Positions 18,203-34,619 of a stretch of 34,797 bases of DNA are shown here, piece after piece; positions within the stretch are counted from its first letter, which is position 1, and every line of letters starts with the position of its first letter. Below the pieces are notes generated by a model. That model was not told the DNA's origin. It made no database searches and saw only the letters and a program-made list of their open reading frames with translations. Location of the stretch: assembly GCA_030645295.1 (NCBI GenBank), contig JAUSMG010000126.1:1-34797 (forward strand), written 5' to 3'. This stretch comes from Saprospiraceae bacterium. GTDB taxonomy: Bacteria; Bacteroidota; Bacteroidia; Chitinophagales; Saprospiraceae. A program made the position numbers and the translations under genes.

Positions 18203-19327
18203 ATGAACATTCTGATCGCGCCCGATTCTTTCAAAGACGCCCTGTCCGCCCTCCAGGTATGCCATGCATTGGAGGCGGGCATTCGCTCGGCCAAACCCAA
18301 AGCAGATGTGCGGCTTTGTCCCCTGGCTGATGGCGGTGAGGGTACTTACGAGGCATTGGCATCTTCTCTGGGTTTGCATAAGGTCGAAATGGCTGCTTGC
18401 GATCCCCGTTTTCTCCCCATTACGGCTGCCTACGGACGTACAGTGGATGGAAAGACCGCGTTCATTGAAATGGCAAAGACAGCAGGGCTTCAATTGCTGT
18501 CGGCAGAGGAGCGCAACCCTATGCTGACGACCACTTTCGGAGTAGGTCAACAGATCGCCGACGCCCTTTATCGTGGCGTGGAAAATATTGTATTGGCCAT
18601 CGGTGGCAGCTCCACCAATGATGCAGGGATAGGGATGGCCACTGCTTTGGGATGGCAGTTTTTGGATGAAAACGGGATGGCATTGCCGCCAGTGGGTGGT
18701 AATTTGAACCGTATTATGACCATTGTGCCGCCTGAAAATCGCCCACGGGTAAGTGTAGAGGTCATATGTGATGTGGACAATCCCTTATTTGGCCCAATGG
18801 GAGCCGCAAGGGTATATGCCCGGCAAAAAGGGGCAGATGATGCCATGATCCTCCAACTTGACGATGGGTTAAAGCACTTTTCCAACATTGCCGCAAAAAC
18901 CGGTGCTGCCCCGGATCCGGCATCTTCTGGGGCAGGGGCGGCGGGCGGCATGGGCTTTGGAGCGATGTTTTTTTTGAATGCCGAAATACGGCGCGGAATA
19001 GAGGTCGTGCTTGATCTGCTGGATATGGATGAAAAACTGGGCTGGGCCGATATGGTGGTAACAGGCGAGGGTAAAATAGACGGCCAAACAGCCCATGGGA
19101 AATTAGTGCAGGGGCTGTGTCGTCGCGCAGCAAAAAAGGGGACTCCTGTTATTGCATTCTGCGGTTTGTTGGAAGCGAGTCCAGAGGATATACATCAAAT
19201 TGGATTGGCAGCGGCCTATTCCATCAACGACCCTGCAGAGGGCAGTGATTTAGCGGAACTAATCAAAATGACTGAAAAAAATTTAGAAAAAACGGCTGAA
19301 CGAGTATTTCAGACTTTTAAGCTTTGA
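18203..19327 (+). CDS. Glycerate kinase (GlxK/GarK type)
   Basis: MNILIAPDSFKDALSALQVCHALEAGI, PLADGGEGTYEAL, AIGGSSTNDAGIGMATALGW, VVTGEGKIDGQTAHGK. Confidence 0.95.
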   Translation: MNILIAPDSFKDALSALQVCHALEAGIRSAKPKADVRLCPLADGGEGTYEALASSLGLHKVEMAACDPRFLPITAAYGRTVDGKTAFIEMAKTAGLQLLSAEERNPMLTTTFGVGQQIADALYRGVENIVLAIGGSSTNDAGIGMATALGWQFLDENGMALPPVGGNLNRIMTIVPPENRPRVSVEVICDVDNPLFGPMGAARVYARQKGADDAMILQLDDGLKHFSNIAAKTGAAPDPASSGAGAAGGMGFGAMFFLNAEIRRGIEVVLDLLDMDEKLGWADMVVTGEGKIDGQTAHGKLVQGLCRRAAKKGTPVIAFCGLLEASPEDIHQIGLAAAYSINDPAEGSDLAELIKMTEKNLEKTAERVFQTFKL

Positions 19328-21379: not shown

Positions 21380-22957
21380 ATGGATATCGTAAATATACGT
21401 CCGCTGCTCCTCACAGATTATGATGGGCTCAAAGCCTGCATGATACGCGCCTACCCGCAAATGCCGGAGGCTTATTGGAAAGAACCTCAGATCAACCGTT
21501 TGCTCAGCATTTTCCCGGAGGGGCAATTGGTCGTTACCATCAACGAGCAAATCGTAGGATGCGCACTTTCCATTATTGTCCGATACGATCGCTTTGGAGA
21601 CAATCATACTTATCGCGAGATCACCGGCAACTTCACTTTTGTGACCCACGAATCCGGAGGCGATACACTCTACGGCATTGACGTATTTATAGACCCCACT
21701 TTTAGAGGCCAACGCCTGGGCCGCCGCCTTTACGACGCCCGGAAGGAATTGTGCGAACAACTCAACTTATCCGGAATTGTCTTTGGTGGGCGCATTCCGA
21801 ACTACCACGAGCATGCAGACGTGCTTTCCCCGCGGGCCTATATCGAAAAGGTGAAAAACAAGGAATTACATGACCCCACCCTCAATTTTCAACTTTCCAA
21901 CGATTTCCACGTAAGCAAGGTGCTGCGTGGCTATCTGCCTGGCGACGAGGAGTCCAAAGAGTTTGCCACCTTGTTACGCTGGGACAATATTTACCATATA
22001 CCCGTAAAATCTGCTAAAAGCACCATAACCAAATTGGTGGTACGGCTTGGGCTGGTACAATGGCAAATGCGCCCTTACCGGAGTGTGGATGAATTGTTTG
22101 AGCACATGGAGTATTTTGTAGATGCAGTGTCCAGCTATCGGTGCGACTTCGCTTTATTTCCGGAGTTTTTCAATGCGCCGCTGATGGCTCAATACAATGA
22201 CCGACCTGAAGGAGAGGCTATTCGTTTGCTGGCAGAACATACCGAAACGATCCGGGACAAGTTTGCAAAGTTGGCTGTTAGTTACAATATCAACATTATC
22301 AGTGGCAGTATGCCTTTGCTGCGCGATGGACAACTGTTCAATGTTGGTTACCTCTGTCGCCGGGATGGGAGCGTGGAAATTTATGAAAAACTGCACGTTA
22401 CGCCCGACGAAGTAAAGTGCTGGGGGCTTAAAGGGGGCAATACCTTGCGCACTTTTGATACGGACTGTGGCAAGATCGGGATCCTTATCTGCTATGATGT
22501 GGAATTTCCCGAACTACCGCGCAGATTGGCAGAGGAGGGTATGAATATCCTTTTTGTGCCTTTCCTCACGGATACCCAAAATGCTTTTTCAAGGGTTCAA
22601 CTCTGCGCTCGTGCCCGGGCCATTGAAAATGAATGCTTTGTAGCGATCGCCGGCAGTGTCGGCAACTTGCCCAAAGTCCACAATATGGACATTCAATATG
22701 CCCAAAGCGCCGTATTTACCCCTTGTGATTTTGCCTTCCCGGTCAATGGCATCAAAGCAGAAGCTACTCCCAATACGGAAATGCTGGTGGTAGCAGATGT
22801 TGATCTGGAGCTCTTGATCGATCTGCGACACTCCGGAAGTGTTCGGAACCAGAAGGATCGCCGTACAGACCTGTATAAAATTGATTTCAAGTTGGAGAAC
22901 CCGAAACAAACGAACCTAAGTACTGTAGTGCCTGTGCTTGACGACAATTTGGCTTGA
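21380..22957 (+). CDS. GNAT N-acetyltransferase / carbon-nitrogen hydrolase (nitrilase) fusion
   Basis: N-terminal GNAT (GIDVFIDPTFRGQRLGRRLYDARKEL); C-terminal nitrilase with FPEFF, YEKLHVTPDE and GILICYDVEFPEL around the E-K-C triad. Confidence 0.92.
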   Translation: MDIVNIRPLLLTDYDGLKACMIRAYPQMPEAYWKEPQINRLLSIFPEGQLVVTINEQIVGCALSIIVRYDRFGDNHTYREITGNFTFVTHESGGDTLYGIDVFIDPTFRGQRLGRRLYDARKELCEQLNLSGIVFGGRIPNYHEHADVLSPRAYIEKVKNKELHDPTLNFQLSNDFHVSKVLRGYLPGDEESKEFATLLRWDNIYHIPVKSAKSTITKLVVRLGLVQWQMRPYRSVDELFEHMEYFVDAVSSYRCDFALFPEFFNAPLMAQYNDRPEGEAIRLLAEHTETIRDKFAKLAVSYNINIISGSMPLLRDGQLFNVGYLCRRDGSVEIYEKLHVTPDEVKCWGLKGGNTLRTFDTDCGKIGILICYDVEFPELPRRLAEEGMNILFVPFLTDTQNAFSRVQLCARARAIENECFVAIAGSVGNLPKVHNMDIQYAQSAVFTPCDFAFPVNGIKAEATPNTEMLVVADVDLELLIDLRHSGSVRNQKDRRTDLYKIDFKLENPKQTNLSTVVPVLDDNLA

Positions 22958-22959
22958 AA

Positions 22960-23799
22960 TTAGACAACCCATCCTTCTCCCAACAGCATTCGCACCGCCG
23001 CTGAGAACCCTTCAGGGCCAACGCCTTCGAGCTTGATCAGATCTGGAAGATCCAGATCGGCCCAGGTATGATCCGGTTTCTGCACCAAAAAGGGCAGATC
23101 CACCACTTCCAGCATGGGGGCATCATTGGGGCTGTCGCCAATGGCTGCGAAACATGGGTCTTGCACAATGGTTTGCCGGAATATTCCCTTCATCCATTCC
23201 ACGGCCCTGCCTTTGTTCACCGAGCCTGATTGCACGGTGTAAAAGCGACCGCCGCGGCTCAGGACAAATCCTTTGGGTTTCAGCAGCGTATTGATCCGTA
23301 CAACTTGCGCCGCATCCAGGCGACTCAGCAAAGTCTCCGTGAACCAGCGTTCGCGGGCGCGCTGCAGGAACGCTCCGCGCAGGCCGGTTGCAGCAGATAA
23401 TTCAGCGTCGGAAGCATCTGAATACCCATGTATTTCTGGGATAATCTTTAACGCAGCACGCAGTACAGTTGCTTCTGCATGGGCAAAAACGACCAGATCA
23501 TAGCCTTGCTCCTTTCGGGTCGCCGAATAGAATTTTCCCGGAAAAAAACCATCAGGAATAGCGATAGCACTGCCGTTTTCGAAGATAAATGGCATTTTCA
23601 GGCCGATTTGGCGTTGCAGATGAATTTGTTCTGCAAAGGTTTTGGAGGAACAAAACACGAGCGGCGCTTTTCGTTCGACCAGGTTCCGAATCGCCGCCTC
23701 GCTCCCCTCAAAGCTGTAACTGTGATGGTCGATCAGCGTACCATCCAGATCTGTGAAGACCACCAGTGGCCGACCTGTTGTAAGGGTGAATTCGATCAT
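22960..23799 (-). CDS. mpgP: Mannosyl-3-phosphoglycerate phosphatase (HAD-IIB)
   Basis: VFTDLDGTLIDHHSYSFEGSEAAIRNL, FCSSKTFAEQ, MPFIFENGSAIAIP, AIGDSPNDAPMLEVVDLPFLVQKP; ATGA overlap with mpgS. Confidence 0.88.
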   Translation of the reverse strand: MIEFTLTTGRPLVVFTDLDGTLIDHHSYSFEGSEAAIRNLVERKAPLVFCSSKTFAEQIHLQRQIGLKMPFIFENGSAIAIPDGFFPGKFYSATRKEQGYDLVVFAHAEATVLRAALKIIPEIHGYSDASDAELSAATGLRGAFLQRARERWFTETLLSRLDAAQVVRINTLLKPKGFVLSRGGRFYTVQSGSVNKGRAVEWMKGIFRQTIVQDPCFAAIGDSPNDAPMLEVVDLPFLVQKPDHTWADLDLPDLIKLEGVGPEGFSAAVRMLLGEGWVV

Positions 23800-24992
23800 G
23801 CCGGAATATAATTACCGTGCTGCGACCAGTCTATGGTTCGGCCGGCAGCCTCAAAATCAATATCGGACAGCACAGGGTATTGCCGGAGTTTTACGGGGCT
23901 TGCATTTTTACGGATGATTTTTAATCGATTCAGCTCAGTAGAGATCTCCGTTTTCAGGTTTGCCGGACATATAGCAGAGTGCCAAAGCACAGAAAGCGAG
24001 TATTCGATCATTTCATTGATGTGATCATCCCCTTTGGCCACTTCATGTAAGTGTGGGTTGCGCGATTCGATCTGAAAAATCTCCACCCCGCTTTTCATGA
24101 TTTCCGGGAATGGAGCAGGCATCACACCGCCAAATTTTTCCATCATGCTCACGAAATGGTGTGTCTCGACAGAAAAACCGGTCGAATAATCGAGCGAGAG
24201 CGCCAAAGGCATAGACAGGGCGTGCTCTCCCGCATTGCCCGTGCGCAGCACTTCAGTTTCGTAACCGGTGAAATGGCCTAAAAACTGATTGAGGTACTGG
24301 TTGGTGATCCGGGACACACGTCCCCATTTGGCAAAAAACAGATCGTTTTCTACGATTTTTGGTTTGCTGTGCCACTGGATGCGCACCATCGAATAGGGTG
24401 TTTTGCCTTGCGAAAGCCCGGCAGAAAAAATGCGGACATATTCGAAAACCGCTCCCGGGAAATAATTGTCCGAATCAATAAATCCCACATATTTTTTACC
24501 TGCCAAATTTGCGAGGGCAATGCCCGCCAGCATCCCCTCTGCCTTTCCGTGTCGAACCAATCCTTCCTCGTCTATCAGGTGTGGATAACCGCCTTCAAGA
24601 AACAAACGGGCGATCTCAGGCGAGCGCTGATGGGCGATGATGTACTTCTTTTTGGCATACCGGCAAAAAGTGTCCACCATACTGCGTTCCATCCTAAAAC
24701 GGTCAATTGGCTCACTTTTGCTGTTTGAAAGTATGATGGGCAGACAATCGTGCGGAATTCCACAAAGTACCCCTTCCAACAAGCGCAAACGCTCGTCTTT
24801 CACCGGAATCACAATGGCCAGATCCTTTTCAATCTCGTGAATCCGTTCGTAAGGAATCTGCTGAATGACATGATATCGGCTTTCGAACTCAGAATCTACG
24901 CCATGGCCACCATCAAGTTCATAGATCTTTTGTACTTTGTAGAATAGATTGGCGCCAAATCGCTCGGCGCTGGTGGGTATTTCAAGACGCAT
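23796..24992 (-). CDS. mpgS: Mannosyl-3-phosphoglycerate synthase (GT55)
   Basis: LAIVIPVKDERLRLLEGVLCGIPHDCLPIILSNS, RHGKAEGMLAGIALANLAGKKYVGFIDSDNYFPGAVFEYVRIF, GNAGEHALSMPLAL; adjacent to mpgP. Confidence 0.92.
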   Translation of the reverse strand: MRLEIPTSAERFGANLFYKVQKIYELDGGHGVDSEFESRYHVIQQIPYERIHEIEKDLAIVIPVKDERLRLLEGVLCGIPHDCLPIILSNSKSEPIDRFRMERSMVDTFCRYAKKKYIIAHQRSPEIARLFLEGGYPHLIDEEGLVRHGKAEGMLAGIALANLAGKKYVGFIDSDNYFPGAVFEYVRIFSAGLSQGKTPYSMVRIQWHSKPKIVENDLFFAKWGRVSRITNQYLNQFLGHFTGYETEVLRTGNAGEHALSMPLALSLDYSTGFSVETHHFVSMMEKFGGVMPAPFPEIMKSGVEIFQIESRNPHLHEVAKGDDHINEMIEYSLSVLWHSAICPANLKTEISTELNRLKIIRKNASPVKLRQYPVLSDIDFEAAGRTIDWSQHGNYIPA

Positions 24993-25091
24993 TTTTTCTG
25001 TTTTTAGATAATTAAACTACGATCAGAGGTTCGTCAGAACACTCAACCTGTGGACCAAAAAGAAAACGTGGTTAGGATGGTAAACGCCCGC

Positions 25092-26312
25092 TTAAACATC
25101 TGTAGGATCGTTTGCGCCGGTAATTTCTACAGGCCGGTCACGGTAAAATATTGCGCCCAACATTAAAATAACAGCAGTCGCTAAAATGACGAAAAACAGC
25201 ACACCATCATCGAAGGCTTCGATGCGTTGCGCGTCGGGAATTTTATAAAACAAAAGGATGGTGATCAATCCGCGCGGGATGTAAAACAACTCCGGGAGCA
25301 GGTTATATCGGTGTACAACCCGCAAATAGATGAAACGCAGGCCCAGCAGCGCTGCTACAATCAGGGAACCCAATTCCCATACCTGCAAATCCTGGAAATA
25401 AGCCACCCCAATGCCGTAACCAAAAATAACGAAAAAGAACGTTCGAATCAAGAAGGAGGATTCAGCCGTGATGGATTTTAAAAACCCAACCTCATTTTCC
25501 ACGTTTTCATTTGAAAAGTAACGTTTGAGCGGCCTCCATCGTATAAGCTCCCAATTATTAATGACCAATCCAAACATCAGAATGGTAATTAGAGAGGGCA
25601 GATGCATCATTTTTCCGCCAACATAAATGACAATTAGCACCGCGAACGACAAAAAGAACTTTACGTTTATCCGGTTCCGTATCAGCAGCAGCATAAGACC
25701 AAAACAAACCGCCACCGACAGCACCAAAGCCACCACGATACTGCCGCCAAACCATGCAACATCCTGAACACCAATTTGATGGCCCGAGGTGAAAAAATTA
25801 AAAACCATGATGCCAATGATGTCTGAAAAAGAGGCTTCGTATATCAGAAACTCCTTTTTTTCAGGCTCCAGATGGTGCACACTCGGCAATACCACGGCGC
25901 TGCTTACAATGCTCAACGGGATGGCGTAGATCAAACAATTGATCCATGGCGTTTCCGGCAACCACCAAAAAAGAATGCCGGTTACTGCCAACGAGGAGAC
26001 TAGAAAAATCACCAGGGCCGAGAAGAAAGAATTCCTGATGAGCGGTAAGCGTTCCTTCGTAATTTCCAAATCCAACCCGGATTCCAACACGATCATAATA
26101 AGCCCGATCGTTCCCAAAACCTCTACCACTGTAGGCGGAACCTCGAAGGTATATCCCAACAAATCAGCCACATATCGAATTAATATGCCCGTGCCAAGCA
26201 AGAGCAACACCGAGGGTACCCGGGTAAGGCGATTGAGGATTGAAAAAAAATAAGAGAGAATGACCAGGCCACAAACTGCGAACAGAATGTTATACGTTGA
26301 GATATTTTCCAT
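25092..26312 (-). CDS. Cation:proton antiporter (CPA-type)
   Basis: Polytopic; VPSVLLLLGTGILIRYVADLLG, EVLGTIGLIMIVLESGLDLEI, AIPLSIVSSAVVLPSVHHLEPEKKEFLIYEASFSDIIGIMVFNFF are typical of Na+/H+ exchanger domains. Confidence 0.88.
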   Translation of the reverse strand: MENISTYNILFAVCGLVILSYFFSILNRLTRVPSVLLLLGTGILIRYVADLLGYTFEVPPTVVEVLGTIGLIMIVLESGLDLEITKERLPLIRNSFFSALVIFLVSSLAVTGILFWWLPETPWINCLIYAIPLSIVSSAVVLPSVHHLEPEKKEFLIYEASFSDIIGIMVFNFFTSGHQIGVQDVAWFGGSIVVALVLSVAVCFGLMLLLIRNRINVKFFLSFAVLIVIYVGGKMMHLPSLITILMFGLVINNWELIRWRPLKRYFSNENVENEVGFLKSITAESSFLIRTFFFVIFGYGIGVAYFQDLQVWELGSLIVAALLGLRFIYLRVVHRYNLLPELFYIPRGLITILLFYKIPDAQRIEAFDDGVLFFVILATAVILMLGAIFYRDRPVEITGANDPTDV

Positions 26313-26349
26313 CTGCGCGAAGATAGCAACATTTTAAATAGAACAATTA

Positions 26350-27708
26350 ATGTCTAATATCCCTACAAACCTCGATGATTCGGTCACCGAACACTTCGTC
26401 GAGGCTGCGAAAAATGTGCTGAAAGAGAACCTCCTCGGCAATTTCACCAAACCTGCCCCCGGTCTGTACCCCCACCAATGGAATTGGGACGCAGGCTTTA
26501 TCGCGCTCGGTTACGCGCGTTCTGATTTCCGTCAGGCCTGTAATGAACTCAGCGCGCTTTTTCGCGGCCAGTGGGCCAACGGGATGGTCCCGCAGATTGT
26601 GTTTTCCGTCCAAAACAAGGGCAAATACTTTCCAGGCTATGTTTTTTGGAACACGAAAGGTGTTCCCGGAAAGCCACGAAATGTGCGCACCTCTGGCATC
26701 ACGATGCCTCCTGTGCATGGGTTTATCCTGAACCACCTGTTGAAACTCGCGCCGGACTCGAAGCGTTACCGGCCATTTTTCCAACGTATGTTCGACCGTG
26801 TACTATTGCTTCACCAATATTGCTACGAATTCCGCGACCCGGAACGCGAGGGACTGGCCTTTATCTGCCACCCCTGGGAATCCGGGATGGACAATCTGCC
26901 CACTTGGGAGGAGGTTTTTACCCAAATCCAATTCGACGCTTCTCAGGTTCCACCCTACGAGCGCCGGGATCTGGAGTACGTAGACGCGCCCTACCGTCCC
27001 CGAAAACAAAGCTACGACCGCTACATTTATCTGGTCGATCTGTTACGGAAACAGCGCTACCAGGAGCCGGAAATATGGAATGACTACCCTTTTCAGGTAC
27101 AGGAACCCATGTTCAATGCCATCCTGAACCACAGCAACGAGGCGCTTCTCGAATTGGGGCAATGGCTTGGCCAGGATACCGGACAACTCCGCGAATGGTA
27201 TACCCAAACCAATCAGGCGCTTAGCCATAAACTCTGGGACGAAAGCCTGGGCGTTTTTGTTTCCTATGACCGGGTGCACCGTCGACCCATTCCGATCACG
27301 ACCGCTGGCGGATTGATCCCGCTGCTATGCGGCGCAGCCAACGCCGAGCAATCGGCTCGAATGGTCTCCCTGATCCAAAGTCCGACTTTTTCCGGCACAT
27401 CGGAAAATCCCGCCTGGCTATGCGCTTCCACCGCGCTGGATGAACCGGGTTTCGATGCCTGTCGTTATTGGCGCGGACCGGTTTGGATCAACATGAACTG
27501 GCTGTTGTTCCACGGTTTGCGGCGATACGGGCAAGCAGATCTGGCGGCGCGACTGCGTTCAGATTCGCTGGAACTGGTGCGCAAATTTGGTTTTTGGGAA
27601 TACTACAACCCCTGGAAAAACCTGCCGGAAGGCGAGAAAAACGGCGGGTACGGCGCTGATCAATTCTCCTGGACGGCGGCTTTGGTGTTGGATTGGCTGG
27701 AAGAGTAA
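26350..27708 (+). CDS. MGH1-like (GH63/trehalase-like) glycoside hydrolase, candidate mannosylglycerate hydrolase
   Basis: YPHQWNWDAGFIALGYARSDFRQACNELSALFRGQWANGMVPQIVF, ITMPPVHGFIL, CHPWESGMDNLPTWEE, YWRGPVWINMNWLLFHGL; divergent from the antiporter/mpgS/mpgP genes. Substrate is inferred from context. Confidence 0.75.
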   Translation: MSNIPTNLDDSVTEHFVEAAKNVLKENLLGNFTKPAPGLYPHQWNWDAGFIALGYARSDFRQACNELSALFRGQWANGMVPQIVFSVQNKGKYFPGYVFWNTKGVPGKPRNVRTSGITMPPVHGFILNHLLKLAPDSKRYRPFFQRMFDRVLLLHQYCYEFRDPEREGLAFICHPWESGMDNLPTWEEVFTQIQFDASQVPPYERRDLEYVDAPYRPRKQSYDRYIYLVDLLRKQRYQEPEIWNDYPFQVQEPMFNAILNHSNEALLELGQWLGQDTGQLREWYTQTNQALSHKLWDESLGVFVSYDRVHRRPIPITTAGGLIPLLCGAANAEQSARMVSLIQSPTFSGTSENPAWLCASTALDEPGFDACRYWRGPVWINMNWLLFHGLRRYGQADLAARLRSDSLELVRKFGFWEYYNPWKNLPEGEKNGGYGADQFSWTAALVLDWLEE

Positions 27709-28849: not shown

Positions 28850-29368
28850 ATGGGACTCGTTTTTGACATGGACGGTACAATGGTGGACAATATGATGACC
28901 CACCATCGCGGCTGGCGAAAAACGCTGGCGGACTACGGCCTTTTCCTGACCCTGGAAGAGGTCATGGCGACTTGCCACGGAAAGAACGTGGAGATCATCG
29001 AACGGCTGTTTCCGGGAAAATATAGTCTGGAGGAGCGCGAGCGTATTTCATTCGAAAAAGAAAGTAAGTACCGGGAGATCTTTTTGTCTGAACTTCAATT
29101 GCTTCCAGGTTTGCACGAACTTCTTGAAACTGCCCGGAAAGCCAGGATTCCCATGGGGATCGGTACGGCGGCCCCCAAGGAAAATGTGGATTTTGTGCTG
29201 GATAACCTGAACATCCGGCACTATTTCCAGGCAGTGATACATGCCGATGATGTCGATAAAGGGAAACCCGATCCGGAGGTCTTCTACAAAGTCGCGGACA
29301 AACTGGTTGCTCATAATAGTACAACCTATTTGCGTAATAGTATTAGCTTCTCTCTTTTTTCCGAGTGA
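28850..29368 (+). pseudogene. C-terminally truncated HAD phosphatase (beta-phosphoglucomutase-like)
   Basis: MGLVFDMDGTMVDNMMTHHRGW...GIGTAAPKENVDFVLDNLNIRHYFQAVIHADDVDKGKPDPEVFYKVADKL, then the unrelated tail VAHNSTTYLRNSISFSLFSE*. The acidic motif IV region (FEDSPxG) is missing. Confidence 0.65.
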
Positions 29369-29423
29369 CTTTTGCCAATCTGAATCACAATCAGGTTGCT
29401 ATGGGTCCTACTTTTACTACCGG

Positions 29424-29489
29424 AAATTCGCCTTGCATGGGTCTTACGACCCCGCAAAATTCGCCTTGCGCGGGTCTTACGACCCCGCA
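29424..29489. repeat. Two tandem 33-nt palindrome-containing repeats at the 5' end of the SusC ORF
   Basis: AAATTCGCCTTGC[ATG/GCG]GGTCTTACGACCCCGCA twice (29424-29456, 29457-29489), with GCGGGTC-TTAC-GACCCCGC hairpin; encodes NSPCxGLTTPQ. Confidence 0.95.
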
Positions 29490-32400
29490 ACGCACCCGCA
29501 TCATCTCCCTTTTTCTGCTGCTATTCATCCTGCAAATTGGTGTCGCACAGACCTTTGAAGTGTCCGGGACGGTGGTTTCCACCGAAGACGGCGAACCACT
29601 TATTGGCGTGAGTGTACAGGAAATGGGCGCCGGAACCAATAACGGCTCCATGACGGATATCAATGGGGCCTTTAAATTAACCCTGGCTTCTTCCGATGCG
29701 ATATTGCTTTTTCGCTACACGGGTTTTGCCGATCTGGAGCTGCCTGTGCAAGGCCGCACCACAGTCTCCGTCCTGATGAGCAGCGCTGCAAACCTGTTTC
29801 AGGATGTTGTCGTGACGGGTTATAAAAAAGAGATCCGAAGCGACATTTCCTCTGCCATTACCTCCATCAAATCCAGGGATATCGAGAAACTGGTCGTAGT
29901 GGGAATTGACCAGGCTTTGCAGGGACAAGCGCCGGGTGTTATGGTCACTCAGGTCACCGGCTCGCCGGGGGATGATATTGCCGTGCGCATCCGCGGGGCA
30001 GGTACTTTGGGCAACAACAATCCACTTTTTGTCATTGACGGTGTACCCACTACGGGAAACATCAACATGTTTTCTCCGGGCGACATCGAATCCATAGAGG
30101 TGTTGAAAGACGGCGCTGCGGCGGCTATTTACGGCGCCAGGGCTGCCAACGGAGTGGTCCTTATTACCACCAAACGCGGCAAATCAGGCAAACCAACTTT
30201 TTCTTTTGAAGCCTATTCCGGGGTGCAAAATGTCGTAAATCTGCCTACGTTGCTGAATTCGGAGGAATACCTGACTATCCGCAACGAGGCCATTACGAAT
30301 GCCAATACCCTCCGCAATCCGGCCAATCAATTGCCCACTTACGATCCGGCCATTCTGGACTCCTTGCCCGACATCGATTGGCTAGATCTGGTGTTCAACC
30401 CTGCGCCGATTCAACATTACGCGTTGTCAGCCTCGGGAGGCAGTGAATCAAGCAATTTTTACCTGTCCGGGGAATACCATACCCAAGACGGGGTATTCAA
30501 AGGACAAGGTTTTGACAAATATCAGGTTCGTTTCAACGGAGAAATTGGCGGCAAACGCTTCAAAGTAGGCAACAATCTGTCATTTTCCCACACCGATCGC
30601 CAGGTGATCGGCGCTTCCGGCGATGGTTACGGTCCCGGCAACGAGCTCAGCGGGATCCGCTATACGCTCATCGCAGCGCCGGTGTTTCGCAGTCAAAATG
30701 CGGATGGCAGTTATGTCAACGTCAGTTCCGAACTCGGCGACCCTACGCTTTATGGCGACGGCAATGCCAACCCCTTGGTTTTTATCAAAAATACCGACTG
30801 GAACATAAAACGATATCGCTTATTCGGGAATGTATTTGCAGAATTGTCACCCTGGAAGGGTCTAAAACTGCGCTCCACGCTTGGCGGCGACTTCCAGTTT
30901 GAGCGCGAAAAATTATTCAAAGAACGCCTCTCAGATGCGGTGTACTCCCCGACCTCGCTCAACGAAGGCCGGGTGTTTAACCAGACGCTGGTCTGGAACA
31001 ACACCGCAGATTTTCAGCGGACATTTGGCGATCACCGTATTTCTGCCCTTTTGGGCATGGAGGCCATCCAAAACCACACCGATTATCTGGGTGCCTCGGC
31101 CAATAATTTCCGCCGTACAGATCCACTGTTCCGATACATTGATGCGAGCATCCCGGAAGCCATCGGCAATGTGAATGCATCGGGTATTGCAACCGAATGG
31201 GCTTTGTTGTCTTACTTTGCTCAGGCGGGCTATTCCTACAAAAGCCGTTATGTGCTGAGCGCTGCGGTGCGTCGTGACGGGTCTTCCCGTTTTGGAAAAA
31301 ACAATCGCTGGGGTGTTTTCCCTTCAGTTTCGGCGGCCTGGAATGTATCGAACGAGCGCTTTTTTGAGCCTGTCAAATTCATTTCCAGCCTGAAACTCCG
31401 CGCCAGTTGGGGCCGATTAGGCAATCAGGAAATCGGGATTTATCCCTACAGTTCCCTGGTCAGCACAGGCGATCAAGTCTACGTTTTTGGCAATCAGATC
31501 GTGACGGGCGCCACCATTCTCGAAACCGGCAACAGCAATATCCGCTGGGAAACGAGTACCCAGAGCAACCTCGGGCTGGACATGAGTTTTTGGGGAGATC
31601 GCCTTTCGTTGACCGCCGATGTATTCCGCAAAACGACCGATGATATTCTTGTTCGTGTGCCCGTTCCACAGGCTGGAGGCTCAGTACGGCCACCATTCAT
31701 CAACGCCGCTTCGGTTGAAAACAAAGGCCTTGAACTTGGTTTGATCTACAAAAACCGGATTGGGAAATTCAGATATGATATCGGTGCAAACATCTCTGCG
31801 ATCCGAAATCAAGTCACCTCTATCGCCAACAGCGAACCGATCCTGGGCGGTTTTGGCTTGTCCGACGGCGCTTTGACCAAAACGGAAACGGGTTATCCGG
31901 TCGGATCGTTTTTCCTGTATGAAATGCAGGGGATATTCCAGACACAGGAAGAAATCGATGGTAGTCCTTTCCAAACGACCAACACCCGTCCGGGCGATGT
32001 GCGGTTTGCCGACCTGAATGGCGACAATAAAATTGACGACAAAGACCGTAAGCATATTGGCAACCCGTTCCCGGATTTCACGTATGGTGTGAACCTCGGC
32101 TTCAACTGGAAAAACTTCGATTTCTCGACTTTGATCCAGGGTGTGCAGGGCAACGACGTGTATTTTCTCTACGGCAATTTTGCCTACGAAACCCAATCGC
32201 GCGGATTCAATTCCTACTCGGATATCCTCAACCGCTGGACACCGACCAACACCAATACCAACATCCCCAAGGTAAGTCTGGATGACCGTAACGGCAATCG
32301 CCGTGCTTCGACCCGGTTCCTGGAGGACGGCTCGTATATGCGCATCCGCAACATCACGCTCGGCTACAATTTTAAGGAACTGTTGAAATGGAAAGACATC

Positions 32401-32595
32401 GGTGGTTTCCGGCTTTATGTGACGGCACAAAATGCGCTCACGTTCACGAAATATCCCGGCCTGGATCCTGAAATTCAGGCCAATGCAAATGACACGCGTG
32501 GCCTTGGGCTTTCCTCCGACCTTGCGGTGGGGATTGACTGGGGGACGGTGCCCGCGCCGAGGACGTTTATTGCGGGGTTGAAACTGGTTTTTTGA
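29437..32595 (+). CDS. SusC/RagA-family TonB-linked outer membrane protein
   Basis: Signal RTRIISLFLLLFILQIGVAQ, carboxypeptidase-like domain (GTVVSTEDGEPLIGVSVQEMGAGTNNGSMTDINGAFKL), plug (VMVTQVTGSPGDDIAVRIRGAGTLGNNNPLFVIDGVPT), SIEVLKDGAAAAIYGARAANGVVLITTKRG. The track ORF begins at GTG 29365. Confidence 0.95.
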   Translation: MGLTTPQNSPCAGLTTPQRTRIISLFLLLFILQIGVAQTFEVSGTVVSTEDGEPLIGVSVQEMGAGTNNGSMTDINGAFKLTLASSDAILLFRYTGFADLELPVQGRTTVSVLMSSAANLFQDVVVTGYKKEIRSDISSAITSIKSRDIEKLVVVGIDQALQGQAPGVMVTQVTGSPGDDIAVRIRGAGTLGNNNPLFVIDGVPTTGNINMFSPGDIESIEVLKDGAAAAIYGARAANGVVLITTKRGKSGKPTFSFEAYSGVQNVVNLPTLLNSEEYLTIRNEAITNANTLRNPANQLPTYDPAILDSLPDIDWLDLVFNPAPIQHYALSASGGSESSNFYLSGEYHTQDGVFKGQGFDKYQVRFNGEIGGKRFKVGNNLSFSHTDRQVIGASGDGYGPGNELSGIRYTLIAAPVFRSQNADGSYVNVSSELGDPTLYGDGNANPLVFIKNTDWNIKRYRLFGNVFAELSPWKGLKLRSTLGGDFQFEREKLFKERLSDAVYSPTSLNEGRVFNQTLVWNNTADFQRTFGDHRISALLGMEAIQNHTDYLGASANNFRRTDPLFRYIDASIPEAIGNVNASGIATEWALLSYFAQAGYSYKSRYVLSAAVRRDGSSRFGKNNRWGVFPSVSAAWNVSNERFFEPVKFISSLKLRASWGRLGNQEIGIYPYSSLVSTGDQVYVFGNQIVTGATILETGNSNIRWETSTQSNLGLDMSFWGDRLSLTADVFRKTTDDILVRVPVPQAGGSVRPPFINAASVENKGLELGLIYKNRIGKFRYDIGANISAIRNQVTSIANSEPILGGFGLSDGALTKTETGYPVGSFFLYEMQGIFQTQEEIDGSPFQTTNTRPGDVRFADLNGDNKIDDKDRKHIGNPFPDFTYGVNLGFNWKNFDFSTLIQGVQGNDVYFLYGNFAYETQSRGFNSYSDILNRWTPTNTNTNIPKVSLDDRNGNRRASTRFLEDGSYMRIRNITLGYNFKELLKWKDIGGFRLYVTAQNALTFTKYPGLDPEIQANANDTRGLGLSSDLAVGIDWGTVPAPRTFIAGLKLVF

Positions 32596-32647
32596 AATGA
32601 CGATTAGAAATTGCTTTGATCTTTTCATCCACTAAATATAATTCGCA

Positions 32648-32821
32648 ATGAAAAACTTAAGTCTTTCGACTGTTTTTGCATTATTGCTGATGTCTATATC
32701 GCTCAGTTCATGCGAAGCGATAGCAGGAATCTTTAAAGCTGGAATGGGCTTCGGCATTTTCATTGTAATAGCTGTGATAATACTGATCGTATGGCTGATC
32801 ATGCGTTCCCGTAAAAAATAA
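32648..32821 (+). CDS. Small lipoprotein/membrane protein (57 aa)
   Basis: Not in the track: MKNLSLSTVFALLLMSISLSSCEAIAGIFKAGMGFGIFIVIAVIILIVWLIMRSRKK*; lipobox LSSC plus one TM helix. Confidence 0.75.
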   Translation: MKNLSLSTVFALLLMSISLSSCEAIAGIFKAGMGFGIFIVIAVIILIVWLIMRSRKK

Positions 32822-32868
32822 GCACTAACCCAGGGTTAATAACTTTTTATGTGCCTCATCATCCCATG

Positions 32869-33123
32869 CCGTTGTTGTTGGCGAGGACGCTAGGGGTGTA
32901 CGGAATGTTTGATCATATCAGCCGCATCGCGGCGAAACGTCTGTAGAAATAAAGGCGAGAATTCGGTCTGAAGGTGCGTAGCACCGGAACTTTTGACGGG
33001 TGTTTCGGTGCTACGCACCTTACAAATCTACTCAAAACTCTATTTCTACAGACGTTTCGCCGCGATGCGGCTGATATGGTCAAACATTCCGTACACCCCT
33101 AGCGTCCTCGCCAACAACAACGG
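32869..33123. repeat. Nested ~255-bp inverted repeat (83-nt outer arms, 16-nt inner arms)
   Basis: Outer arms 32869-32951 and 33041-33123 pair at 82 of 83 positions; inner AAGGTGCGTAGCACCG (32971-32986) pairs perfectly with CGGTGCTACGCACCTT (33006-33021). Confidence 0.97.
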
Positions 33124-33197
33124 CGGAGAAAGTGATGATTTTACTTTTGACTCAACCCCGTTTAGTAGCCGCGTTACACAAACAATTGACTAATAAC

Positions 33198-34619
33198 ATG
33201 AGGTCTATACAAATTCTCATTTTGCTGCTTTTGGGCACCTCCTGCCAAGGCATCCTTGACAAAGAACCCATCGCCACCCTCGACGCTGGTTCCTTTTTCC
33301 AAACGGAAGACGATGCCGTACAGGCCTTGAACGCCGCTTACCAGCCACTGCTGTTCAGCAACGAGAACAACAATTTTTACTGGGCTTTTGCAGAGGTTAC
33401 TTCTGATGAGGCCATCACCGGCGGCGACGGTTCGCGCCCGGGCATTGCAGAAATGGATGCATTCACGTTCACACCCCGCACAGAGGAACTGAACGATTTC
33501 TGGAAACTGCAATACACCGGCATTACCCAGTGCAACCTCGTGCTCGACAATGTTCCAAATATTGAGATGAGTGAATCCCGCCGGAACCAAATCATTGGCG
33601 AAGCGTTGTTCCTGCGTTCTTACTTCTATTTTTTGCTGACGCAGGTATTTGGCGATGTGCCTTTGCTTACCCGGGTCGTCCCGCCGGAAGAACTTAAGGT
33701 CGCCAAAACGCCGAAGGCAACCATTTACGCCCAGATCGCGGCGGATTGCGAGCGGGCTGGAACTTTATTGCCCGATCAACATGCCGCAAAGGATCTGGGC
33801 CGGGCCACCAAAGGCGCTGCGTATGCCCTTGCTGCAAAGACCTTTTTGTATGAGAAGAATTGGGAGAATGTGCTGGAGTACGTCGGCAAAGTGAAAGGTT
33901 TGGGTCTCTATTCGCTCATGCCGGATTACGGGGATAATTTCAGGAAAAACACCCAAAACAACGCCGAATCCGTCTGGGAAATACAACACGCCAACCTTGA
34001 ACTCGGTGTCGGAAACTTTCTGAACCAATGGTGGGCATCCAAAAAATATGAAGGATATGGTTTCGCTGAAGTAACGGAAGAATATGTGCTGGCTTTTGAG
34101 CCGGGCGATCCGCGCCGCCAATTCACGGTGGCTTCCAACAACGAGGACTACTTTGGCGTGGTGTACAAAAACTCCTTTTCTTCTACCAAATACAGCGTGC
34201 GCAAATACCTGCAAGCCAAGGACTCTGTGACGCAAAAAGCCGATGGTGATATCAATTACACGGCCATCCGTTTCGCTGAAGTGTTGCTCTGGGAGGCCGA
34301 AGCGCTTACCGCACTAAACCGGGTACAAGAGGCGCAGACACCGCTTGAAGTGGTGCGTGCCCGTGCTCGCGCTCAAGCGGTTGACCCATTGACCGCCTTA
34401 CCGCCTGTGACGGTCTCAGATCAACTAACCATGCGCGATGCGGTGCGCCACGAACGTCGGGTGGAGCTGGGCTTTGAACTACACCGGTATTTTGACCTGG
34501 TTCGCTGGGGACTGGGGAGTGTTTTGCCGGGATTCCAGGTGGGGAAACACGAGGTTTTTCCTTTGCCGCAAACGGAAATTGATTTGAATCCGTTTTTGAT
34601 GCAGAATTCGGGCTATTAG
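33198..34619 (+). CDS. SusD/RagB-family outer-membrane lipoprotein
   Basis: MRSIQILILLLLGTSCQGILDKEPIATLDAGSFFQTEDDAVQALNAAYQPL, RHERRVELGFELHRYFDLVRWG, FPLPQTEIDLNP. The track ORF starts upstream at 33132. Confidence 0.95.
   Translation: MRSIQILILLLLGTSCQGILDKEPIATLDAGSFFQTEDDAVQALNAAYQPLLFSNENNNFYWAFAEVTSDEAITGGDGSRPGIAEMDAFTFTPRTEELNDFWKLQYTGITQCNLVLDNVPNIEMSESRRNQIIGEALFLRSYFYFLLTQVFGDVPLLTRVVPPEELKVAKTPKATIYAQIAADCERAGTLLPDQHAAKDLGRATKGAAYALAAKTFLYEKNWENVLEYVGKVKGLGLYSLMPDYGDNFRKNTQNNAESVWEIQHANLELGVGNFLNQWWASKKYEGYGFAEVTEEYVLAFEPGDPRRQFTVASNNEDYFGVVYKNSFSSTKYSVRKYLQAKDSVTQKADGDINYTAIRFAEVLLWEAEALTALNRVQEAQTPLEVVRARARAQAVDPLTALPPVTVSDQLTMRDAVRHERRVELGFELHRYFDLVRWGLGSVLPGFQVGKHEVFPLPQTEIDLNPFLMQNSGY

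Follow-up and report, generated by a model that had tools for sequence, protein, structure and literature searches.

A predicted mannosylglycerate synthesis cassette with a linked cation/proton antiporter and a candidate degradation array in a Saprospiraceae-type bacterium

The window analyzed here is an entire contig of 34.8 kb (34,797 nt) from an uncultured Saprospiraceae-type bacterium, whose own genome is coded G000. It probably carries two opposed half-modules for the protective solute mannosylglycerate. A synthesis cassette on the minus strand, composed of a cation/proton antiporter gene (NHX), mpgS, and mpgP, appears to lie inside a degradation array on the plus strand. The sequences of the window and its relatives show the gene identities, their order, and two conserved associations, one between NHX and mpgS and one between the hydrolase and glycerate kinase. 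The enzyme types are known and the grouping is evidently a real, conserved one, and its linkage to an antiporter is apparently new. The core of the locus is as follows.

22960..23799, minus strand: mpgP, mannosyl-3-phosphoglycerate phosphatase (HAD-IIB), 279 aa, assigned by TIGR01486, HAD motifs, and the overlap with mpgS
23796..24992, minus strand: mpgS, mannosyl-3-phosphoglycerate synthase, 398 aa, assigned by PF09488, TIGR02460, the PDB 2wvk match, and DxD
25092..26312, minus strand: NHX, NhaP/NHE-fold cation/proton antiporter of a Ser-Asp subfamily, 406 aa, assigned by PF00999 and Foldseek
26313..26349, no strand: 37-bp gap between the divergent antiporter and hydrolase genes
26350..27708, plus strand: mannosylglycerate/glucosylglycerate hydrolase-type glycoside hydrolase (GH63-like), 452 aa, assigned by PF22422

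The mpgS and mpgP genes overlap by ATGA, and the antiporter gene lies 99 bp upstream of mpgS on the same strand. The hydrolase gene, on the opposite (plus) strand, starts 37 bp from the antiporter start. A preliminary description of this DNA had reported this four-gene layout, and its coordinates and spacing are exact.

The mannosylglycerate synthesis genes

MpgS and MpgP make mannosylglycerate via mannosyl-3-phosphoglycerate. Synthesis, as predicted from the profiles, is the firmest part of the locus reading, and the synthesis pair named in the preliminary description holds. The window MpgS matches PF09488 with 472 bits, passes the equivalog TIGR02460 (480 bits, cut-off 351), and matches PDB 2wvk with 366 bits. 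Its DxD metal motif (D173/D175) is invariant across nine aligned sequences. MpgP passes the subfamily model TIGR01486 (199 bits, cut-off 165), stays under the equivalog TIGR02461 (171 bits, cut-off 244), and contains the HAD motifs DLDGT, CSSKT, and GDSPND. Its function is assigned from the overlap of mpgP with mpgS. The window thus shares both enzymes, their adjacency, and their gene order with the two-step synthesis of Thermus, Pyrococcus, and Rhodothermus. It differs from these systems in its own MpgS clade, in an operon that includes an NhaP-fold antiporter, and in an MpgP that reaches the subfamily level only.

The mpgS gene is rare around this bacterium: of 199 genomes from its family, one has a match over the cut-off, as do 9 of 396 from its phylum. 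When GTDB genomes were scanned for MpgS, 328 relatives emerged, the best 80 of which were analyzed as loci. Fifteen of these 80 form, together with the window, a single clade of 16 sequences (Saprospiraceae/Chitinophagales). The window protein is up to 84% identical to MpgS of the other metagenome-assembled genomes (MAGs) of this clade and 55-56% identical to the Rhodothermus type. In all 15 related loci, mpgP follows mpgS. One of them, L075, is filed under a Thermoanaerobaculia MAG, yet its genes are of the Saprospiraceae type (MpgS 83%, antiporter 79%), and the contig was probably misbinned from a Saprospiraceae genome.

Linkage of the antiporter to mpgS

The antiporter is recognized by PF00999 (Na_H_Exchanger; 88 bits, cut-off 26), and no more specific family was passed. 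A sequence search of the PDB detected no relative, and a fold search was used instead. The best Foldseek matches of its AlphaFold model (pLDDT 76) are PaNhaP, MjNhaP1, SOS1, and NHE, all with probability 1.0 (E 4e-8 for PaNhaP).

The antiporter gene is near mpgS in 11 of the 15 related loci, which share ancestry and therefore amount to fewer independent cases than this count suggests. It is near mpgS in none of the 65 other mpgS loci of the scan. It is present in 14 of the 15 related genomes and located away from mpgS in those of L074, L078, and L079. These counts bear out the earlier proposal that the antiporter belongs with the synthesis pair. The proximity takes four forms. The antiporter lies upstream on the same strand in the window, L075, and L091; downstream and convergent in L076, L081, L082, and L084; downstream on the same strand in L080; and upstream and divergent, with a Crp-type regulator between, in L083 and L085-L087. 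Among the 198 family genomes without mpgS, 94 contain relatives of the antiporter, at about one per genome and no more than 42% identity. Because homologues are this sparse and this distant, the chance of a random encounter with mpgS is small. The antiporters of mpgS genomes also form a clade of their own in a quick tree, in which long branches are flagged.

Other antiporters join the same loci. A NhaD-type Na+/H+ antiporter, over the cut-off of NF038006, is found beside mpgS and NHX at four Saprospiraceae/Chitinophagales loci. A Na+/Ca2+ antiporter, over the cut-off of TIGR00367, lies directly 3' of mpgP in L075 and L091, the two loci that share the NHX-mpgS-mpgP order of the window.

L081:6558-7982, L082:881-2365, L084:10009-11283, and L085:1-876: NhaD-type antiporter
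L091:10120-11088 and L075:3223-4188: Na+/Ca2+ antiporter

The best case for a tie between cation transport and the synthesis of the solute in this lineage is linkage that recurs despite rearrangement. Mannosylglycerate is an anion, and high levels of organic anions require K+ or Na+ as counter-ions (PMC1224877).

The hydrolase and the candidate degradation array

The hydrolase matches PF22422 (MGH1-like) with 302 bits against a cut-off of 27. Its best solved relative is the mannosylglycerate hydrolase (MGH) of Thermus, TTHA0978 (330 bits), ahead of the glucosylglycerate hydrolase (GgH) of M. hassiacum (244 bits), and it stays under the GgH equivalog NF047898 (382 bits, cut-off 550). The profile and structure-relative scores rule out a trehalase or a plain GgH, with neither of which the protein groups, and the MGH/GgH type given in the preliminary description is retained. 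The catalytic pair is kept as D181 and E417 (D182 and E419 in GgH numbering). Ten other listed substrate contacts are kept, and so is F439, as in the Thermus enzyme. The class is secure at the level of sequence, and the exact substrate is not. The hydrolase gene has a raised G+C content (54.5%), and a horizontal origin was set aside on the grounds that the copies in close relatives are likewise at 53-58%.

The hydrolase is part of a wider set of plus-strand genes.

18203..19327, plus strand: glycerate kinase, assigned by TIGR00045
19462..21210, plus strand: amino-acid permease family transporter (PF13520, 176 bits), array membership uncertain
21380..22957, plus strand: GNAT-nitrilase fusion (PF00795 and PF00583), role not assigned

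Glycerate kinase, which the preliminary description does not mention, lies 4 kb away. It scores 424 bits with TIGR00045 (cut-off 168) and is the sole match in genome G000. It is predicted to belong to the same functional set as the next step after the hydrolase. The two genes adjoin in L198 and L200 and occur together in L120, from another phylum. The order in L196 is glycerate kinase, an MscS channel, GNAT-nitrilase, and hydrolase. In L199, one region holds a permease (an 81% homologue of that in the window), MscS, GNAT-nitrilase, and hydrolase. GNAT-nitrilase is also directly beside the hydrolase in L074, as it is in L196. No MscS homologue was found in the window.

L196:12404-13246 and L199:647-1468: MscS-type mechanosensitive channel

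The glycerate kinase, permease, GNAT-nitrilase, and hydrolase of the window can be read as a variant of the array of its relatives. In the window, GNAT-nitrilase and the hydrolase, which are neighbors in relatives, are separated by the synthesis cassette on the opposite strand; which came first, cassette or array, is a matter of inference only. Window-type hydrolases (66-79% identity) occur in seven of the 15 mpgS genomes, and the 198 family genomes sampled that lack mpgS have none. The genomes are interrelated rather than independent, and the p-value therefore overstates this contrast. In five of the seven, the gene is away from mpgS, in most cases accompanied by glycerate kinase or by genes of the array to which the kinase belongs. 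Conservation of the arrangement in relatives, as surveyed through gene neighborhoods, thus extends to the antiporter and only partly to the hydrolase.

That GNAT-nitrilase takes part in amide chemistry of the solute is only a thought; mannosylglyceramide occurs in Rhodothermus (PMC1224877). A SusC/SusD-type outer-membrane pair (29365-34619) is found near the hydrolase, downstream of genes for an AraC regulator and for a HAD phosphatase of short length.

Contrary evidence and alternative explanations

Several observations weigh against the reading of two opposed half-modules. The first group concerns the distribution of the hydrolase. The window-type gene adjoins mpgS in two of the 15 related loci (L074 and L076). 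Eight of the 15 mpgS genomes gave no hydrolase match, and as MAGs some of these may be incomplete. Near full-length relatives are carried by 55 of the 198 family genomes without mpgS. In G026 (L071), which also lacks mpgS, an array of a TonB receptor, a relative of the hydrolase, a sodium:solute symporter, and glycerate kinase looks like a system for uptake and use. Since the family is common in relatives that lack mpgS and may there be grouped with genes for uptake, it need not be tied to endogenous mannosylglycerate. The window hydrolase could accordingly scavenge environmental mannosyl- or glucosylglycerate, with the synthesis cassette beside it by chance, and its distance from mpgS in five mpgS genomes is in keeping with this. 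We regard scavenging as rather unlikely. Among the genomes sampled, the clade of the window-type hydrolase is restricted to mpgS-bearing ones. No symporter or TonB receptor directly adjoins the window hydrolase, and the SusC/SusD pair is separated from it by the AraC gene. Hydrolases also lie beside mpgS in Rhodothermus, Opitutales, and Chloroflexi.

The second group concerns the substrate pocket. Gln115 of the characterized enzymes corresponds to Met119 in the window, and the paired His78 is replaced by Gln82. Gln115 hydrogen-bonds the sugar and is among the contacts strictly conserved in characterized enzymes (PMC6608630). Because this sugar contact is a methionine here, cleavage of mannosylglycerate is undecided from sequence. 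The M119/Q82 pair is common to most homologues from Saprospiraceae, whether their genomes carry mpgS or lack it, and the His/Gln pair is kept in Rhodothermus, Opitutales, and most other homologues. In the tree, the window hydrolase falls in a separate Bacteroidota branch and the Thermus MGH groups with Opitutales, on long branches and with a one-sequence outgroup. Compared with Tt8MgH (TTHA0978, PDB 4wva) and the M. hassiacum GgH (PDB 5ohc), the window protein shares full-length homology, the catalytic Asp/Glu, and most contacts. It differs from both in the two replacements and in the separate branch, and its activity is a prediction. An unlikely alternative is that, owing to the coupled pocket change, the enzyme acts on another small glycoside, glucosylglycerate or a different one. 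However, the remaining listed contacts, the catalytic residues, and F439 are kept. No glucosylglycerate synthase (GpgS) scores over the cut-off in the 199 family genomes, where four weaker matches occur in three genomes. Furthermore, both glycerates are substrates of the enzymes from Thermus and Selaginella, and the Thermus MGH cleaves them with similar efficiency (PMC6608630), so a single replacement does not necessarily rule out mannosylglycerate.

The third group concerns the antiporter. Asn-Asp and Thr-Asp-Pro motifs are typical of characterized NhaP proteins. The window protein belongs to the same Pfam family and has the same predicted fold as the CPA1 NhaP/NHE antiporters PaNhaP, MjNhaP1, and SOS1. 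It differs from them in having no PDB relative by sequence and in its ion-site position, Ser163-Asp164, which is Ser-Asp instead of Asn-Asp in all homologues aligned. The Thr-Asp-Pro motif is absent. With Ser-Asp at the ion site, the transported ion cannot be named. It is quite improbable that only mpgS and mpgP are linked and that the antiporter is a housekeeping gene retained as a neighbor by shared ancestry: many family genomes that lack mpgS have homologues of about 40% identity, and the gene lies elsewhere in three of the related genomes, but proximity is kept through four arrangements, the type found in mpgS genomes has its own clade, and these loci also attract further antiporters.

The intergenic gap and the genome context

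The preliminary description had proposed control of both halves from one divergent promoter region. Within the 37-bp gap, a single sequence, TTG-N18-TATCTTCG, resembles a Bacteroidota promoter; it is on the minus strand and points toward the antiporter, and the background rate is about 0.55 such matches per kb per strand. The plus strand of the gap contains no promoter-like match facing the hydrolase. The frequent location of the hydrolase elsewhere in the genomes of relatives further weakens the proposal, and a single shared divergent promoter is a weak idea that the sequence does not support. The window gave no match to a riboswitch or to any other known RNA family.

The tetranucleotide correlation between the contig and the rest of its genome is 0.965, and misbinning is thus unlikely. 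The closest relatives of the window MpgS, antiporter, and hydrolase all come from Saprospiraceae or related Bacteroidota MAGs. Two genomes with the same genus code (G040 and G141) lack mpgS, the hydrolase, the antiporter, and glycerate kinase; their base composition and one kinase gene are very unlike those of the window, and this comparison is given no weight. Elsewhere on the contig (11738-18076), molybdenum cofactor genes form a row together with a gene for a TauE-type transporter: moaA, moeA, a moeB-type ThiF-rhodanese gene, moaE, and a moaC fusion.

Equivalent loci in other lineages

In Rhodothermus and Opitutales, mpgS has a divergent neighbor from this hydrolase family. The Rhodothermus locus (L054-L056, L089) resembles the window in having the hydrolase divergent from the synthesis pair. 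It differs from the window in that no antiporter lies between them and the hydrolase comes from another branch. In a Chloroflexi MAG, a hydrolase of this family is inside the operon, between mpgS and mpgP. Eight further loci (L088, L090, L092, L094, L103, L106, L118, and L122), from KSB1, Chloroflexi, Calditrichaceae, and other hosts, have a GH38 MngB-type gene in or beside the mpgS operon. Against NF007331, the model for the mannosylglycerate hydrolase MngB, the L088 gene reaches 532 bits, under the cut-off of 1138. The GH38 gene never occurs together with the GH63-like hydrolase in mpgS loci and is possibly a non-homologous replacement of it.

Proposed model and implications

For the model of two opposed half-modules, we infer the substrates, the ion, the physiology, and the timing of expression. 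The minus-strand operon would produce mannosylglycerate from GDP-mannose and 3-phosphoglycerate via MpgS and MpgP, and the antiporter would adjust the cytoplasmic cations that balance the anionic solute. The plus-strand array, from glycerate kinase through GNAT-nitrilase to the hydrolase, would degrade the solute once stress is relieved. The hydrolase would free mannose and glycerate, and glycerate kinase would feed glycerate back to glycolysis. The two halves would be used at opposite times.

A broader proposal, which we put forward tentatively, is that mannosylglycerate synthesis in one Saprospiraceae/Chitinophagales lineage has been drawn into an ion-handling island. An antiporter subfamily dedicated to this role may be inherited with mpgS for counter-ion control, often in the company of a Crp regulator and of antiporters of the NhaD or Na+/Ca2+ type. 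A separate array of the hydrolase, glycerate kinase, and sometimes MscS may reverse the accumulation on down-shock.

In the literature covered, which is partial and no proof of absence, no report ties mannosylglycerate to Saprospiraceae, and none describes an antiporter as a conserved neighbor of the genes for this solute. Mannosylglycerate is best known from thermophiles. The loci described here place its genes with cation antiporters in a Saprospiraceae-type lineage. The coupled change in the hydrolase pocket offers a small and cheap test of substrate choice in this enzyme family. If the linkage is functional, it makes the balancing of an anionic solute by cations testable and supplies candidate enzymes for its turnover.

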